Origin: a virus
Virus record (IMG/VR): IMGVR_UViG_3300031658_003088
Location: 1 to 26,329 of that record
Length of the DNA stretch: 26,329 nt
Strand: one strand, 5' to 3'
Shown: positions 11,188-16,091 of the stretch, piece by piece
Layout of the letters: the number at the start of each line of letters is the position of its first letter
Position numbering within the stretch: the first letter of the stretch is position 1
The notes under the pieces: generated by a model
What the model was told of the DNA's origin: nothing
Databases searched by the model: none
What the model saw: the letters and a program-made list of their open reading frames with translations, nothing else
Position numbers and translations under genes: made by a program

Positions 11188-11408
11188 TGACAACTCCTAA
11201 AAAACCACCACCCAAATCATATAAACGTGAAGTAGCCTGGTGTCTTCTAGGGGTTACCTTACTGATGATCATTAAGCTCTTCGTGTACACTGAGGACCCA
11301 AAGCTTGCTACTGCCCTCACAACAGCCTTTAATGGCTGGGTATTAGTGTCTATTCCCACTGCTATGGCAGCTTTTGGGCTTCACTCATGGCAAAATAAGG
11401 ATAAATGA
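11187..11408 (+). CDS. Holin candidate (two membrane spans)
   Basis: The 73-residue protein has a short basic, proline-rich N-terminus (TTPKKPPPKSYKRE). Two hydrophobic segments follow, about residues 16-33 (VAWCLLGVTLLMIIKLFV) and 46-65 (FNGWVLVSIPTAMAAFGL), and then a polar tail SWQNKDK. Size, charge and two spans fit a class II holin that releases the endolysin. Its start overlaps the endolysin stop by one base and the Rz start overlaps its stop by four bases, which is the usual lysis-cassette arrangement. Confidence 0.7.
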   Translation: MTTPKKPPPKSYKREVAWCLLGVTLLMIIKLFVYTEDPKLATALTTAFNGWVLVSIPTAMAAFGLHSWQNKDK

Positions 11409-11896
11409 TGACCAAGATCCTCGTAATCACTATCATCGTTCTAGGGGGCGCCTTAACCCTTGCAACCGAACTTTGGCTAAGTGCTCGGGATGATTTAGCT
11501 AAGAATCAGGTAAAATTAGATGATGCTAATGCTGAAACAATTAAACAAAAATTACAAAATACTCTATTAAAGTTAGAGGCAGCCAAGGCAATAGGCCAAA
11601 TTACTGTTATGGCCGAGGAGAGGAAAAATGATGCTATACGTTATCAAACAGAACTTAATAGAATTAACAGTCGCCTCGTCAGTTCTAAAAAAGCGGCTAC
11701 GGAACACCCTGAACGTTACGGTGCTATTGCTACTTTCCGTATCCGTCGTGGGATGCGAGACATTTGTAGGAGTGGAGAAGGCTCTCCCGACACCTGTAAA
11801 ATTAAAAGTGTACGTCCCGCCAAGGCCAGCACCAGTTATCCCCGTAAATTTGACGTTATCCCAGGTAAACAATCAAGTAGCAAAGCAATTAAGTGA
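11405..11896 (+). CDS. Rz: i-spanin, Rz-like inner-membrane subunit
   Basis: This 163-residue protein has one N-terminal membrane span (ILVITIIVLGGALTLATELWL). A long periplasmic helix follows, rich in Asp, Lys, Asn and Glu (ARDDLAKNQVKLDDANAE, KQKLQNTLLKLEAAKA, AEERKNDAIRYQTEL), and a basic, less structured C-terminus. This is i-spanin topology: it spans the periplasm and pairs with an outer-membrane lipoprotein to fuse the two membranes at lysis. The o-spanin gene starts inside it in the +1 frame at 11628, as in many Rz/Rz1 pairs. The ATG overlaps the holin stop. Confidence 0.8.
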   Translation: MMTKILVITIIVLGGALTLATELWLSARDDLAKNQVKLDDANAETIKQKLQNTLLKLEAAKAIGQITVMAEERKNDAIRYQTELNRINSRLVSSKKAATEHPERYGAIATFRIRRGMRDICRSGEGSPDTCKIKSVRPAKASTSYPRKFDVIPGKQSSSKAIK

Positions 11897-12032
11897 AGAC
11901 GGAATAGCCTTTGATTACACGGCTATGAGCATTGAAGATGGTTCTCTTCTTATGACTTGGTTAGCAGCAATTAAGAATAACCAAAGAGCTTGGGCTAATT
12001 ACGCTAAATATTGGGAAGACAAATTTAAATAG
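11628..12032 (+). CDS. Rz1: o-spanin, Rz1-like outer-membrane lipoprotein (nested start)
   Basis: The ATG at 11628 follows GAGGAG (11615-11620) inside the Rz gene and reads in the +1 frame; it continues 136 bases beyond the Rz stop. Residues 26-43 form a signal peptide ending in a lipobox VVGC, with Cys43 as the lipidated residue. A proline-rich segment follows (ALPTPVKLKVYVPPRPAP), typical of Rz1. At 134 residues it is longer than the classic lambda Rz1, with a C-terminal helical domain (SLLMTWLAAIKNNQRAWANY) that resembles longer o-spanin variants. The 25-residue polar lead before the hydrophobic core is unusual. Confidence 0.8.
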   Translation: MMLYVIKQNLIELTVASSVLKKRLRNTLNVTVLLLLSVSVVGCETFVGVEKALPTPVKLKVYVPPRPAPVIPVNLTLSQVNNQVAKQLSEDGIAFDYTAMSIEDGSLLMTWLAAIKNNQRAWANYAKYWEDKFK

Positions 12033-12040
12033 GAATATAC

Positions 12041-12535
12041 TTATGACTTTTCTTCTGATGACATTAACCGTTTTTCTAGGTTCCTCAACTCGTGCGTTAG
12101 TCGGTTCTGGACGTAGTCTTTTTCCAAAGCCGGTGACTTATCTGCTCGCGTCTGTACTGTGCGCCAGTATTGGATTAGGTCTCGCTCCATCTCCGTCAGC
12201 CATCCATCTACTAGCTGCTCTTTGGGCAGCACTGGCTGTGACTGTAAGCTTGTCAGCTGGCTATACGAATTGGGAGAAGACTGCTGTAATGCTGCCACGG
12301 CTGGCAATACCGAGCTTATTTGTTGTAATGCCGCTAATGTATACGATTGGAATTCATCTAAATTTTCTAATTTATGTGCTATTTTCGATAGGTGTCGCAC
12401 TACTATACCCACGCCGAGAAGCTGCTTATCAATATCTACTGGCTCTGAAGATTCCGTACTATTGGCAGTGGGTTGCCGATCCCGTTGATCCGGCAATAGT
12501 CCATCGGAAGTTACGTCTGTATACGCCATTTTCAT
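12041..12535 (-). CDS. Hydrophilic protein A-minus, antisense to a membrane-protein gene
   Basis: The 164-residue hydrophilic protein is the last gene of the minus-strand operon. It has no signal or membrane segment; the middle is Gln/Ser-rich and helical (LAALQQISSVLPAVAALQQS). The C-terminal third has QPVLPKE and ERDLIQYWRTVQTRADK. The minus-strand gene at 13154-13636 has QPELPKE and EVALIQHLRSEGLSADK at the same spacing, so the two look like paralogues. Purine-rich AGAAGAG precedes the start. The whole gene lies opposite the plus-strand frame 12043-12630, with codon position 1 opposite position 1; its TAA stop shares a base with that frame's ATG. Function is unknown. Confidence 0.6.
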   Translation of the reverse strand: MKMAYTDVTSDGLLPDQRDRQPTANSTESSEPVDIDKQLLGVGIVVRHLSKIAHKLENLDEFQSYTLAALQQISSVLPAVAALQQSSPNSYSQLTSLQSQPVLPKEQLVDGWLTEMERDLIQYWRTVQTRADKSPALEKDYVQNRLTHELRNLEKRLMSSEEKS

Positions 12536-12630
12536 TTTTCTCTTCTAGTGATTTTTGGGATAGCGCAAGGTTAGCTGAGTGTGCCTCAGGAGCTGCTCAT
12601 ATTGGGCTATTACCTATATTATTTATATAG
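12043..12630 (+). CDS. Polytopic membrane protein A-plus, end of the lysis operon
   Basis: This 195-residue protein follows the Rz1 stop by 10 bases with AGGA at 12031-12034. It is strongly hydrophobic, with about four membrane spans (residues 2-15, 30-48, 53-71 and 88-118). The motif FLGSSTRALVGSG near the N-terminus and PLMYTIG...LLYPRR in the second half also occur, diverged, in the plus-strand frame at 13123-13638 (LLGGSARSFVGTG, PLVYLFG, LFYPHR). It resembles small phage membrane proteins with an N-terminal span followed by a GSG/GR loop, of unknown role; a lysis-related role is possible from position. The last 60 residues lack a counterpart in the second copy. It overlaps the minus-strand gene A almost entirely. 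Confidence 0.65.
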   Translation: MTFLLMTLTVFLGSSTRALVGSGRSLFPKPVTYLLASVLCASIGLGLAPSPSAIHLLAALWAALAVTVSLSAGYTNWEKTAVMLPRLAIPSLFVVMPLMYTIGIHLNFLIYVLFSIGVALLYPRREAAYQYLLALKIPYYWQWVADPVDPAIVHRKLRLYTPFSFFSSSDFWDSARLAECASGAAHIGLLPILFI

Positions 12631-12799
12631 AATTACCGGTCCATACGTTAGCAGTTTTACAGGTTTTACACACCCGATTGCCTGAATGAGTTGAGGTAAA
12701 CACCTCAAAGCATGAAAGGCATTTTCTACGTAATGTCTTATATTGGTATGCTATTTCTGCATCAGGATCAGTAGGTCTTTTACTATATGGCATTGGCAT
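12623..12799 (-). CDS. Small zinc-ribbon-like protein (58 aa)
   Basis: Reading the minus strand from ATG at 12799 gives 58 residues. The sequence has KCLSCFEVF and RVCKTCKTANVW, i.e. two CxxC pairs 13 residues apart with a basic N-terminal half (KRPTDPDAEIAYQYKTLRRK). This is a typical short zinc ribbon of the type seen in phage proteins with 'RxCLxCxxxF...GNRxCxxC'. It may bind nucleic acid or RNA polymerase, but that is inference. AAGGAGA lies 12 bases before the ATG, a rather long spacing. It converges with the plus-strand frame ending at 12630, overlapping by eight bases. Confidence 0.7.
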   Translation of the reverse strand: MPMPYSKRPTDPDAEIAYQYKTLRRKCLSCFEVFTSTHSGNRVCKTCKTANVWTGNSI

Positions 12800-12803
12800 A
12801 ATG

Positions 12804-12986
12804 TTATTTAATCTCCTTACAAGTCGCCTTATCTTTAGGTAGTTTTAGCTTTTGATCTACCTTACGATAAAAGCTAATATTATAGTTATCCATTGCCTGA
12901 TGACATTCAAATATATCTTCGAATTGAATAGTTACTGCATATGGGAAATGAAGGCCAATTATGATGGTTAATATAGCAGGGGTCAT
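12804..12986 (-). CDS. Small secreted or membrane-anchored protein (60 aa)
   Basis: The 60-residue protein starts MTPAILTIIIGLHFPYAVTI, a hydrophobic N-terminal segment that could be a signal peptide or anchor, followed by a polar domain with two cysteines (FECHQAMDNYN, KATCKEIK) that could form a disulfide in the periplasm. AGGAG lies about 11 bases before the ATG on the minus strand. The start overlaps the stop of the previous minus-strand gene by four bases (ATGA), so it is part of the same operon. Function is unknown; an inhibitor or a superinfection-exclusion peptide would have this shape. Confidence 0.65.
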   Translation of the reverse strand: MTPAILTIIIGLHFPYAVTIQFEDIFECHQAMDNYNISFYRKVDQKLKLPKDKATCKEIK

Positions 12987-13141
12987 GATAAGGTTTCTCT
13001 CCTTTTTGTAATAACATACTCATCTATTTCTAAATGATCGTATGGGCAATTATCAATATTACAGGGCATTGTTTGGGGGTAAGGTTTATCTCGTCGTTTT
13101 AGCCGTATTGTGCATAGCTCGCATGTACTGCGTCTTGGCAT
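12983..13141 (-). CDS. Small cysteine-rich basic protein (52 aa)
   Basis: Reading the minus strand from ATG at 13141 gives 52 residues. There is a CELC pair near the N-terminus, then CNIDNC in the middle, between basic segments (RLKRRDKPYP, TKRRETLS), suggesting metal binding. AGGGA lies about nine bases upstream of the ATG, and the preceding minus-strand gene ends 12 bases before it. Its TGA overlaps the ATG of the next gene (ATGA). These operon features make it a likely real gene despite its size. The 5' part also lies opposite the start region of the plus-strand frame at 13123. Function is unknown. Confidence 0.6.
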   Translation of the reverse strand: MPRRSTCELCTIRLKRRDKPYPQTMPCNIDNCPYDHLEIDEYVITKRRETLS

Positions 13142-13638
13142 TTGTAATTTCCCTTATGTTTCTTTTAGGAGGGTCGGCCAGATCGTTTGTAGGTACAGGC
13201 TCCGGTCCACGTTGGCTAGGTAGGTGGTCAGTTTATCCGCCGATAGCCCTTCTGAGCGCAAGTGTTGGATTAACGCCACCTCTTGAGTGGACATATAACC
13301 TAGACCAATTACTCCTTCTTTGGGTAGCTCTGGTTGCTTCTCTAAATCTGGCGATGGGGTGGACGAAGTTACTCGATCAATATCTGCCTCAATGGCTCGG
13401 TTATGTTTGTCGATACGTTCTTGGTGATCCAAAGTGGGATCAAAAACATCAGTCTTATGCTTGGGATTGGGATCATGGTCGGTGGATGGCCGTAAGGTTA
13501 CTGCCTTCGCTAGTGTGTATAAGCCCTCTCGTATATCTATTCGGCCAATTATCTCAGGGGGCGATTTCATATATGGTTCTGTCTCTGATAGCTGGACTAT
13601 TCTATCCACATCGTCAAAGAGTGTTTGGTCAGTCATAG
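13123..13638 (+). CDS. Polytopic membrane protein B-plus, antisense to the minus operon
   Basis: This frame encodes 171 residues from ATG 13123; ATGs at 13042 and 13156 are also possible and none has a good ribosome binding site, which weakens the call. The protein is hydrophobic with about four spans. It is similar to the plus-strand protein at 12043-12630: LLGGSARSFVGTG, LSASVGL, LLLLWVALVASLNLAMGWT, LPSL.....PLVY and LFYPHR have counterparts in order. Several shared residues use quite different codons (R as AGA versus CGT, S as TCG versus AGC), a sign of selection on this protein frame. It covers the whole minus-strand gene 13154-13636. It may be expressed weakly, or be a decaying copy. 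Confidence 0.5.
   Translation: MYCVLAFVISLMFLLGGSARSFVGTGSGPRWLGRWSVYPPIALLSASVGLTPPLEWTYNLDQLLLLWVALVASLNLAMGWTKLLDQYLPQWLGYVCRYVLGDPKWDQKHQSYAWDWDHGRWMAVRLLPSLVCISPLVYLFGQLSQGAISYMVLSLIAGLFYPHRQRVFGQS
13154..13636 (-). CDS. Hydrophilic protein B-minus, paralogue of the 12041-12535 product
   Basis: This 160-residue protein starts MTDQTLFDDVDRIVQLSE and is soluble, acidic at the N-terminus with a charged, proline-containing middle (LRPSTDHDPNPKHKTDVFD). The C-terminal part has QPELPKE and ALIQHLRSEGLSADK, matching A-minus. AGGA sits seven bases before the ATG, and the previous minus-strand gene ends ten bases upstream, so its place in the operon is well supported. The gene is fully opposite the plus-strand membrane-protein frame, in the same 1-to-1 codon phase as the other pair. 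I do not recognise a domain. Function is unknown. Confidence 0.75.
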   Translation of the reverse strand: MTDQTLFDDVDRIVQLSETEPYMKSPPEIIGRIDIREGLYTLAKAVTLRPSTDHDPNPKHKTDVFDPTLDHQERIDKHNRAIEADIDRVTSSTPSPDLEKQPELPKEGVIGLGYMSTQEVALIQHLRSEGLSADKLTTYLANVDRSLYLQTIWPTLLKET

Positions 13639-13646
13639 CCTAATCC

Positions 13647-13841
13647 TCATTTTTGCTTTGTGTGATCAAATACTTCAGTTGAATCATAGAAGTCTTGTAA
13701 TCGCTTAATAAGATGTTTAGCTGTACCTCTACTAATCGTACCATTTACTAGGCATACCCCATTCTCACCATGGACATAATGGGTGCACCGAGTATCCCCG
13801 TGTTGATGCACAAACATAGGAAATATACGAGGTTCAGTCAT
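13647..13841 (-). CDS. Small His/Cys-containing protein (64 aa)
   Basis: The ATG at 13841 gives 64 residues; a TTG seven codons upstream is less likely. The ATG overlaps the end of the previous minus-strand gene by eight bases. The first half has FVHQHGDTRCTHYVHGENGVC, with several His and two Cys that could bind a metal, followed by a helical segment RGTAKHLIKRLQDFYDST. There is no membrane segment. The sequence looks like one compact strand-rich domain plus a helix. I do not recognise the family. Its stop is ten bases before the start of the next minus-strand gene. Confidence 0.65.
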   Translation of the reverse strand: MTEPRIFPMFVHQHGDTRCTHYVHGENGVCLVNGTISRGTAKHLIKRLQDFYDSTEVFDHTKQK

Positions 13842-13944
13842 CTTTAAAACTATCCTGATCAATCAGCATCCTGACTCTGACCATAGTTGCGGTCTCTCTT
13901 TCAAATTGCTGTATTACTTTTTCAATTCTCTCAGCTTCAGTCAT
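13834..13944 (-). CDS. Very small helical protein (36 aa)
   Basis: Reading the minus strand from 13944 gives 36 residues beginning MTEAERIEKVIQQFERE and ending in an acidic tail. It is likely one amphipathic helix. AGGA lies eight bases before the ATG. The start overlaps the upstream stop by four bases (ATGA) and the stop overlaps the next ATG by eight bases. The ordered overlaps on both sides support it as a coding gene. Confidence 0.55.
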   Translation of the reverse strand: MTEAERIEKVIQQFERETATMVRVRMLIDQDSFKDD

Positions 13945-14057
13945 ACAATGATTCCTATTTGAGCTAAGGCCCTACGGCAGACCTCTACATATGATTTACT
14001 ATTTGTACGCCAGTTTGTGGTGACATACACGCACTCAGATTCCTGGGCTCTAGTCAT
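13941..14057 (-). CDS. Very small protein (38 aa)
   Basis: Reading the minus strand from 14057 gives 38 residues: MTRAQESECVYVTTNWRTN, then a helix-like YVEVCRRALAQIGIIV. It has two cysteines and a hydrophobic C-terminus. Its ATG lies inside the last eight bases of the upstream gene, and its TGA overlaps the next ATG by four bases. There is no recognisable family. The overlaps on both sides are the main evidence. Confidence 0.5.
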   Translation of the reverse strand: MTRAQESECVYVTTNWRTNSKSYVEVCRRALAQIGIIV

Positions 14058-14352
14058 GACTATCACACCAATTTTCATAAGCAGTTTCAGCTAAATCCTC
14101 TAAAAATAATGTGAAGTAAGGGGGGATAACTACTGTTATACCAGAAGCATGCCTAACCCATAAATCTGATAGATCCATCTTATGATGGTCCTCAGTAGTT
14201 ACGAGAATTATCTCAGCACTGCCTGCTTCAGCTGGGTAACATTCAGAAGGTTCTCCGTATAGTTTACCAGGGGTTGGTTCAGTAATCTCAGACTCTACCT
14301 GGATAGGCTGACCTGATGGCAATTCATATTCAAACGAATAAGATATTGTCAT
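14050..14352 (-). CDS. Conserved-looking acidic phage protein, first gene of the minus operon
   Basis: This 100-residue acidic protein starts MTISYSFEYELPSGQPIQVE, with beta-strand pattern, then EPSECYPAEAGSAEIILVTT and a helical C-terminal third (FTLFLEDLAETAYENW). The 'FEYELPSG' opening and the 'YPAEAGSxEI' segment recall a family of short hypothetical proteins found in many phages. TAGGAG lies about six bases before the ATG. It is the most upstream gene of the minus-strand operon and is divergent from the ACP gene, with 67 bases between the two starts. Function is unknown. Confidence 0.7.
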   Translation of the reverse strand: MTISYSFEYELPSGQPIQVESEITEPTPGKLYGEPSECYPAEAGSAEIILVTTEDHHKMDLSDLWVRHASGITVVIPPYFTLFLEDLAETAYENWCDSHD

Positions 14353-14419: not shown

Positions 14420-14746
14420 ATGTCATCAACTGAATTTAATTTTACAGATGAAGAATTTCTAACCGTTATTAATTTAATGTGCAAAATGGACATGCCTGCA
14501 GGTAAAGAGTTTATTCCTGTGGCGCACATGGAAGAATTACTTAATGCCGAACGATTGGATAGCTTGGGCATTGTGGTGTTCTTTATTTGGATATCTGAGT
14601 TGTTTGGTATACCTGAGTCAGATGTAGCAGAATTTGCCCAAATAGAGGAGCTCACTCCTCGAGCAATAAAAGACTTTGTTATTGCTAATTGTACGCAAAC
14701 GTACGCTTACGCTGATGCAGAGGAGTTTGCTAAAAAATGTTTATAA
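14420..14746 (+). CDS. Acyl carrier protein-like protein
   Basis: This acidic 108-residue protein is predicted helical. Residues 45-68 read ERLDSLGIVVFFIWISELFGIP, matching the ACP core: a DSL motif whose Ser48 is the expected phosphopantetheine site, followed by helix II and the 'E.FGI' turn. EELTPRAIKDFVI is in place of helix IV. It is longer than a standard 75-80 residue ACP, with a 20-residue N-terminal lead and a C-terminal helix. Holo-ACP would carry acyl chains as thioesters; host holo-ACP synthase would be needed. AAGGTG precedes the ATG. The ketoacyl synthase gene starts ten bases before its end, a clear functional pair. Confidence 0.8.
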   Translation: MSSTEFNFTDEEFLTVINLMCKMDMPAGKEFIPVAHMEELLNAERLDSLGIVVFFIWISELFGIPESDVAEFAQIEELTPRAIKDFVIANCTQTYAYADAEEFAKKCL

Positions 14747-15747
14747 CCCACACAAACTCAGTATATTCTGAAGAGATAACTCTATTAGATCATTTACCAT
14801 GGCCCCAATATGTACACCAGGTAGCCAATGGTGGAGGCATGGTTGTCGAGCGCGGTATTAAGACAATGCCTGCTGAGCTCATTGATTATGTACTTAAAGG
14901 CAAGCATGGAGCCGCTGAAGGCACTGTCGAATTCATTCAAGAGCTATTAGCTACAAATGCCAGAGTTGGCCTTATACTGGCTGCAGGTGGCACCAGCTGG
15001 ACAGGGTACACCTCAAATATTCCCCGAACAGACAAATACCCAATATGTAAGGTTCCTCCTATGGGCGCCACACAAGTGTTTGCTGGGTATCTTGCTAACC
15101 GGTTAGGTTCTTTTGAATACATATCCACGGACTGCACCAGCTGCATTAGTGGGCACTCCGCCTGGTATACAGCCAATAATATGCTTAAATTAGGCCTCTT
15201 AGATGCCATGGTAGTCATCTCCTCAGACAATGGGCTTTCTGAAGAATACTTAGCAATATTTGGTGAACACGGTTTATCTAAATCAGTAGAAGAAGAAGAT
15301 ACTGATATAGTTAAATTCCGAGTAGGCCATGGGTGTAACATAACTATATTTGAAGGCGTTAACCACTTAGCAGCAGTTAAGCGTGACCCAATAGCAATAG
15401 TAACTGATATGCATTTAGCAGCTGAAACGCATGTTAACCCTTTAGGAATATCAGATACTGGTGCCGGGTATGAGAAGGTGATTACTGCTGTAGATACCAC
15501 CGGCATTGACTTTGTTAAGACTCACAGTACATTCTCTGAGGATAATAAAGTGGAAGAAAAGTTAGTTAAAGCTGCCTTTGGTGATATTAGATTAGTTAAT
15601 TATAAACTACGTATTGGCCATACCATGGGGTCTTCTACTGCGATAGAGACTGCTTTAGCTATCCAAGAAGAACAAGGTAAGTTCCTTAGTTTAGGTGCAG
15701 GCATGGGTAATGTATTTTCATCGGCCGTAGTGGAGATTATTAAATGA
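14737..15747 (+). CDS. Compact beta-ketoacyl-ACP synthase (KAS I/II-like thiolase fold)
   Basis: The 336-residue protein is shorter than FabB/FabF (about 410). YISTDCTSCISGHSAWY (128-144) matches the nucleophile region, with C133 at the place of the KAS cysteine. FRVGHGCNITIFEGVNHLAA matches the 'GEGA..LVLE...HA' region. VKTHSTFSEDN (260-270) matches the 'HGTSTP.ND' loop with H263. NYKLRIGHTMGSSTAIE (288-304) matches 'K...GH..GA.G..E' with K290 and H295. So a Cys-His-His triad appears complete. KAS enzymes condense malonyl-ACP with an acyl chain. AGGAG at 14721-14725 lies in the ACP gene. Substrate is unknown; the C-terminal glycine loop is GAGMGN instead of FGFGGTN. Confidence 0.82.
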   Translation: MFITHTNSVYSEEITLLDHLPWPQYVHQVANGGGMVVERGIKTMPAELIDYVLKGKHGAAEGTVEFIQELLATNARVGLILAAGGTSWTGYTSNIPRTDKYPICKVPPMGATQVFAGYLANRLGSFEYISTDCTSCISGHSAWYTANNMLKLGLLDAMVVISSDNGLSEEYLAIFGEHGLSKSVEEEDTDIVKFRVGHGCNITIFEGVNHLAAVKRDPIAIVTDMHLAAETHVNPLGISDTGAGYEKVITAVDTTGIDFVKTHSTFSEDNKVEEKLVKAAFGDIRLVNYKLRIGHTMGSSTAIETALAIQEEQGKFLSLGAGMGNVFSSAVVEIIK

Positions 15748-16091
15748 TATTCAAACACTGTAGTTTAATCCAAGAAGGGGGATCAGTCCTATTTTATAGA
15801 TTTAACCGCCCTCTTAATGGATATATGATAGCCGGGCTATTCATAGCTCCTAATATTGAGGATAAGTTATGCTTTGCTAAAATATGGAAATACTTTGTAT
15901 CTGAAGTAGTTAGAGGAGATGACATATATTGCTCAGTAGCCCTCGGGGTAGAGAATCCTATGTTTGATAGTTACTTAGAATTCTATAAGGAAATTGATGG
16001 TCTTAAAATTTATAAGGTTGATAATTTTCTTAAAGATCAATATAGTTCGTACACTCACCATAAAGTAACGCATGGCCTTAGGCGGGAATAA
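15744..16091 (+). CDS. Unknown protein of the ACP-synthase operon
   Basis: This 115-residue protein begins at an ATG overlapping the synthase stop by four bases, with GGAG at 15732-15735, and ends one base before the portal ATG. The N-terminal part alternates strands (GGSVLFYRFNRPLNGYMIAGLF), then helix-like CFAKIWKYFVSEVVRGDD and strand IYCSVALGV. NPMFDSYLEFYKEIDGLKIY follows and the tail is basic. The alpha/beta pattern with 'N.M...YL.FYK..G' at the end is reminiscent of a small GNAT-type acyltransferase, which would fit the acyl context, but no acyl-CoA loop (RxxGxG) is visible. I leave the function open. Confidence 0.65.
   Translation: MIFKHCSLIQEGGSVLFYRFNRPLNGYMIAGLFIAPNIEDKLCFAKIWKYFVSEVVRGDDIYCSVALGVENPMFDSYLEFYKEIDGLKIYKVDNFLKDQYSSYTHHKVTHGLRRE

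Follow-up and report, generated by a model that had tools for sequence, protein, structure and literature searches.

Two neighbouring loci of an uncultured marine N4-like phage, A and B, probably descend by duplication from a single pair of antisense, fully nested genes and have since diverged, with both frames kept by selection. Since that duplication, selection appears to have maintained the openness and the similarity of the two frames, each beyond what the other frame accounts for. Judged from one pair of paralogues in one contig, selection appears to act on the plus-strand and the minus-strand products alike.

Genomic setting of loci A and B

The window (the whole 26.3-kb stretch analysed, virus record IMGVR_UViG_3300031658_003088) is a fragment of a Schitoviridae (N4-like) genome. 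Its terminase is mostly 47-59% identical to those of N4-like (Schitoviridae) phages and its portal protein up to 54% identical, and its N4-type terminase, portal and capsid genes stand in N4-like order. Of the related contigs, 80 were retained by capsid protein match. A near-identical contig (L001) overlaps the window from about position 15001 onward only, so that loci A and B lie outside it and it gives no confirmation of them. The features that bear on the analysis are as follows.

Before the lysis cassette, plus strand: tail genes
10732, plus strand: endolysin (PHROG 465), opening the lysis cassette
11405-11896, plus strand: Rz-like spanin gene (weak PHROG spanin match)
11628-12032, plus strand: embedded Rz1-like lipoprotein spanin gene (PHROG spanin match, E=3.4e-4)
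12041-12630: locus A, with long ORFs on both strands
12043-12630, plus strand: A+, an orphan of 195 aa, predicted membrane protein of 4-5 helices
12041-12535, minus strand: A-, an orphan of 164 aa, hydrophilic and helical, nested antisense in A+
12137-12247, minus strand: core of A- kept in B-, LQSQPVLPKEQLVDGWLTEMERDLIQYWRTVQTRADK (BLASTP, block counts, spill-over test)
12623-14352, minus strand: island of small ORFs (from the ORFs and their start contexts)
14050-14352, 13941-14078, 13834-13944, 13647-13862, B-, 12983-13141, 12804-12986 and 12623-12799, then A-, minus strand: members of the island
13154-13638: locus B, with long ORFs on both strands
13042-13638, plus strand: B+, 198 aa, paralogue of A+
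13154-13636, minus strand: B-, 160 aa, paralogue of A-
13232-13345, minus strand: core of B- matching that of A-, LEKQPELPKEGVIGLGYMSTQEVALIQHLRSEGLSADK (BLASTP, block counts, spill-over test)

The Rz/Rz1 pair (11405-12032) ends the plus-strand lysis cassette directly 5' of A+, which begins 10 nt past the stop of the Rz1-like gene with a good Shine-Dalgarno sequence (AGGA, 8 nt upstream of the ATG). The stop codon of A- overlaps the start codon of A+, and the Shine-Dalgarno sequence of A- is weak and purine-rich (AGAAGAG). At locus B, the stop of B+ overlaps the start codon of B-. Similarity of B+ to A+ starts at about 13135-13159 (with an ATG at 13159), B+ has about 33 additional residues between the third and fourth aligned blocks, and no recognisable Shine-Dalgarno sequence was found at any of its candidate starts. 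B- is preceded by GAGG, with the TGA stop of the upstream minus-strand ORF falling within this Shine-Dalgarno region, and is packed among other minus-strand ORFs, the one downstream (13141-12983) being preceded by AAGGG. The open plus frame covers essentially all of A- and of B-, and the antisense register is identical at the two loci, where the first codon positions lie opposite one another and the second position of each frame lies opposite the third of the other. Locus A holds an additional open ORF of 109 aa on the plus strand (12159-12488, GTG start, Cys-rich), making three of its six frames open.

The island is followed on the plus strand by an acyl-carrier-like ORF, a ketosynthase-like gene and the portal gene. 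Related phages have the same layout, in which plus-strand lysis genes lead to a minus-strand island and then to the carrier protein and ketosynthase. The presence of minus-strand genes here is thus as expected, since the relatives carry them at the matching position; at the site of A and B the relatives have minus-strand genes without a comparable plus-strand gene. The island ORF at 14050-14352 (minus strand) has a relative at 5707-5435 of contig L018. Promoter-like and terminator-like sites were no commoner than in shuffled sequence, no Rfam family was matched, and the endolysin, used as a query, brought up no other contig with this lysis module.

Between A and B are two small Cys-rich, zinc-ribbon-like ORFs (12623-12799 and 12983-13141, minus strand) with the motifs CLSCF...CKTCK and CELC...CNIDNCPYDH, for which Pfam matches were sub-threshold only. 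Minus-strand islands upstream of the carrier-protein ORF are present in eight relatives (L065, L072, L057, L060, L083, L025, L027 and L018), with content that is highly variable between them, and they carry ORFs that by eye look like DUF5664-type (NPKD...KYGRHN), peptidase-like (CKCGCG) and IHF/HU-like proteins. At 14420-15747 (plus strand), the small ORF, which has an LDSLG motif of acyl-carrier type, overlaps the 5' end of the ketosynthase-like gene (a match to PHROG 35856 at E=5e-111 and, weakly, to Pfam ketoacyl-synt). This pair lies just 5' of the portal gene in about 20 related marine contigs, with ketosynthase identity of 60-70%, and is nearly missing from cultured phages (one 28% match); they are possible auxiliary genes, for fatty acids or polyketides, in a clade of marine N4-like phages. 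A 115-aa ORF overlapping the end of the ketosynthase (15744-16091, plus strand) is found in about 30 related contigs at 59-75% identity, and a Pfam search with it gave no match.

Paralogy and conservation in each frame

The original prediction held that the products of A and B are paralogous on both strands, and this was borne out. By BLASTP, A+ matches B+ (E=2e-5) and A- matches B- (E=8e-6), with the matches lying in different parts of the DNA; against 1000 shuffles the plus pair scored z=8.0 and the minus pair z=6.2. In a comparison with 1,199 ORFs of 100-400 codons drawn from 946 kb of DNA of related phages, A+ and B+ are mutual best matches by a wide margin (Smith-Waterman scores of 151 vs 84.5 for the next, and 145 vs 82), as are A- and B- by a modest one (111 vs 84, and 108 vs 96.5; 65 vs 61 with stiffer gaps). 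At the sequence level, paralogy of the plus pair is decisive, and that of the minus pair is weaker but real. Across the common core both alignments place identical DNA columns opposite each other, a one-codon gap included. The shared motifs that had been picked out by eye are likewise real and in register at the DNA level, both on the plus strand (FLGSSTRALVGSG/LLGGSARSFVGTG, LCASIGL/LSASVGL, LW.AL, PSL, PL.Y..G and LLYPRR/LFYPHR) and on the minus strand (QPxLPKE...LIQxxR...ADK), and the codon details given with them (R as CGT/AGA, S as AGC/TCG) are correct.

It had also been proposed that the conserved parts differ by frame. The switch between frames is real, as mismatch counts at plus positions 1/2/3 of the aligned blocks indicate, but the two frames do not share the gene evenly: minus conservation covers only a core, some 50 codons long, in blocks 2-3, whereas plus conservation runs through the whole gene. 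Block 1, containing VGSG, has mismatches of 8/2/10, consistent with a conserved plus frame; the middle blocks have even counts (13/11/12 and 14/14/14), consistent with conservation of both frames; and the C-terminal blocks (9/4/11 and 14/12/18) favour the plus frame only. In the VGSG and C-terminal blocks plus position 2 is conserved while the minus residues differ. The A- core lies opposite residues 32-68 of A+, which are themselves conserved in B+. Identity between A and B is only about 50% at the DNA level even in the best blocks.

Whether conservation in one frame fully explains similarity in the other was addressed by holding the amino acids of one frame, redrawing its codons and scoring the similarity of the other frame in the aligned blocks. 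It does not, in either direction. With the plus frame fixed, minus similarity was 18 as observed vs -66±25 as redrawn (P=0.001); in the middle blocks, where the whole minus excess sits, it was 43 vs -27±17 (0/3000). With the minus frame fixed, plus similarity was 155 vs -78±24 (0/3000). Use of hand-chosen, plus-aligned blocks favours the plus frame in the latter test, a bias that is removed by an automatic minus alignment (P=0.0045); with wholly automatic alignments, minus similarity exceeded spill-over from the plus frame at P=0.0075. The suggestion that minus similarity is only spill-over from the plus frame is rejected on these results. Nor is it left-over ancestry, since plus synonymous sites are saturated (13 shared codons vs 10.9 expected). 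Thus, the original claim that both frames are under selection is supported by the reciprocal spill-over tests, and by the tests of stop codons described below, as applied to A and B in one metagenomic contig.

Homologues beyond this pair were sought widely. A tblastn search of 50,697 phage records, with hits allowed up to E=10, yielded no homologue of any frame. Motif-seeded scans were equally negative, both in IMG/VR (queried with A+, with B- and with each of the two alignments, plus and minus) and in 84,980 genomes of bacteria and archaea (queried with each alignment), as were profile searches of 36 related records and 93 loci. Pfam and PHROGs gave best E values of about 0.015, to different families for A and B, which were treated as chance. 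The basis of the case is thus one pair of paralogues in one assembled metagenomic contig, with no third homologue in the collections searched.

Open frames and competing explanations

The openness of the second frame goes beyond what the first frame and codon usage account for, as indicated by synonymous recoding, simulated divergence and a census of overlaps. When each protein was rewritten synonymously with the codon usage of the phage (5000 trials per ORF), 5-10 stops were expected in the opposite frame, and this frame was left free of stops at locus A in 0/5000 trials with A+ fixed and 1/5000 with A- fixed (P<=2e-4), and at locus B in 11/5000 with B+ fixed and 0/5000 with B- fixed (P<=0.0022). 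Permuting a frame's own codons gave P from 0 to 0.21, but the constraint is already built into those codons, which makes this test a weaker one. In simulated divergence with one frame constrained, the other gained about 4-10 stops and stayed open in <=1% of runs. The 946 kb of related DNA contain only four antisense overlaps of at least 150 codons in this register, namely A, B and two in a Photobacterium phage of 56% GC, and none of the reference genes of the window exceeds 70 open codons in that antisense register. Stop-free DNA by chance is disfavoured as an explanation by the recoding, the census and the simulated divergence.

The alternative that survives best, although an unlikely one, is that the ancestor was dual-coding and that A is now translated from the plus strand only and B from the minus strand only, the remaining two frames being relics. 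The clear Shine-Dalgarno sequences of A+ and B-, together with the weak one of A- and the lack of one at B+, fit this reading, as does the codon score of B-, the most gene-like of the four; but an unselected frame should hold about 4-10 stops per copy at this level of DNA identity, and all four frames are open; B+ also retains a strong similarity to A+ that B- does not account for.

It is less probable still that the plus frame alone is the gene, encoding two paralogous membrane proteins opposite accidental minus-strand ORFs. Such an arrangement would agree with the stronger, full-length similarity of the plus pair and with its codon usage being closer to that of the genome. It does not agree with the rarity of an open minus frame among the recodings (0/5000 for A and 11/5000 for B), with similarity in the minus core above spill-over, or with the Shine-Dalgarno sequence of B- and its packing in a minus-strand island whose layout is common to the relatives.

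The converse, in which the minus-strand ORFs encode island proteins and the plus-strand ORFs are accidental, is a decidedly improbable explanation: plus similarity is far above that expected from minus conservation (155 vs -78±24), the plus frame was open in just 1/5000 (A) and 0/5000 (B) recodings, conservation in the VGSG and C-terminal blocks falls on plus position 2 while minus residues differ, and A+ has its good Shine-Dalgarno sequence right behind Rz1, even though the relatives have minus-strand islands here without a comparable plus-strand gene and B+ has no Shine-Dalgarno sequence. Finally, that these are unrelated ORFs of similar composition, or low-stop DNA, would suit the ordinary overall GC content and the further open plus-strand ORF in locus A (12159-12488), but can hardly be credited when the 946 kb contain just four overlaps of this kind, of which two lie side by side and resemble each other in both frames.

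Predicted products, relative age and known overlapping genes

A+ is predicted to be a membrane protein, and a model of it (from two sequences, residues 1-140; pLDDT 61) consists of five helices only, consistent with 4-5 spans. A structure search with A+ gave no fold match, and no known family of lysis membrane proteins or holins was matched by A+ or B+ in PHROGs or Pfam below E=0.02. The position of A+ after Rz1 suggests a late membrane protein, possibly with a role in lysis timing or in the exclusion of other phages. A- and B- are acidic and hydrophilic (net charge -5 and -10). The AlphaFold2 model of A- is helical but of low confidence (pLDDT 42), and was set aside as unusable for structural evidence.

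The composition of the four ORFs is unusual for this phage. Their codon log-odds scores (A+ -0.10, B+ -0.15, A- -0.06, B- +0.03) are all intermediate between those of genes (0.25±0.09) and of same-phase antisense frames (-0.30±0.09), B- being the most gene-like. Overlapping genes are enriched in six-fold-degenerate residues (PMC6195259), and by this criterion all four proteins are enriched in L, R and S (0.31 in A+, 0.32 in B+, 0.30 in A- and 0.23 in B-, vs 0.17±0.02 in the other genes of the window, maximum 0.19). The codon usage of A- and B- is unlike that of the genome; correlation with phage codon usage is r 0.49 for the plus frame and r -0.15 for the minus frame (bootstrap difference 0.26 to 0.74). 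By the criterion that codon usage nearer to that of the genome marks the older frame (PMC3744397), the plus frame is probably older and the minus frame overprinted on it. The pattern could also reflect the membrane character of the plus products, given that the base at plus position 2 determines the one at the minus wobble position, and an ancestral plus frame sits awkwardly with the relatives, which have minus-strand genes at this site but no comparable plus-strand gene.

In the proposed arrangement, the plus frame would be read at the end of the late lysis operon as an orphan inner-membrane protein of 4-5 helices, and the putatively overprinted minus frame would be read within the opposing minus-strand island as a hydrophilic helical protein. 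Plus position 2 is often T and plus wobble positions are T-rich in this phage; T at plus position 2, specifying hydrophobic residues, would place A at the minus wobble position, and T at the plus wobble would place A at minus position 2, specifying hydrophilic minus residues. The codon register would thus pair hydrophobic plus with hydrophilic minus residues, and a membrane protein and a soluble protein could therefore share the DNA with little conflict. Convergent transcription may make the two messages mutually antisense, which would fit a separation in time between expression of the minus-strand island and of the late lysis genes. A and B may now be partitioning the strands, A serving mainly as a plus-strand gene and B mainly as a minus-strand gene, because B+ is without a Shine-Dalgarno sequence while those of A+ and B- are good and that of A- is weak. 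Tentatively, the two copies may still express four predicted proteins, two membrane and two soluble, and have been caught as the strands divide between the copies.

For the majority of antisense overlapping genes in the literature, selection on the second frame is difficult to distinguish from a shadow cast on it by the first. Antisense overlaps as such are already known. Expression has been demonstrated for pop, a long overlapping gene embedded antisense to ompA of E. coli O157:H7 (PMC7103648), and further antisense overlapping genes of bacteria have been described (PMC9927249). Like A and B, these are protein-coding ORFs fully embedded antisense to another, but each is a single locus, with an overprinted ORF on a gene already well known and with expression shown, whereas A and B are two paralogous copies in which both partners are orphans, known here from sequence alone. 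Ambigrammatic narnaviruses, with a reverse ORF over the RdRp (PMC8316113; disputed in PMC8155312), also have both strands open along a whole gene and raise the question of whether the second frame codes; these are RNA viruses with one well-known frame, whereas A and B belong to a dsDNA phage, encode another pair of proteins and, being duplicated, allow a paralogue test. The Rz/Rz1 spanin overlap of the same phage (11405-12032) is likewise a case of nested dual-coding genes in the lysis cassette, but on the same strand, with a well-known function and unduplicated, whereas A and B are antisense pairs. The Rodin-Ohno hypothesis derives class I and class II aminoacyl-tRNA synthetases from an ancestral bidirectional gene (PMC10423125, PMC8835825), and shares with the present proposal a bidirectional ancestor whose duplicates specialise on opposite strands; it is a reconstruction of deep time, whereas the proposed duplicates are 1 kb apart in one phage with four frames still open. 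In the part of the literature that was searched, no report of a duplicated antisense pair was found, and as far as found, such a pair with both frames kept in both copies is new.

Two paralogous copies that have diverged to synonymous saturation provide an internal comparison, in which each frame can be tested with the other held fixed. If expression is confirmed, A and B would offer a clear-cut natural example of coding on both strands by a DNA phage, along with a reason in the codon register (hydrophobic plus, hydrophilic minus) for its sustainability, and possibly a view of duplication resolving two-strand conflict. If the four-protein, strand-dividing reading is true, they would be direct evidence of the ability of duplication first to carry two-strand coding and later to relieve it.
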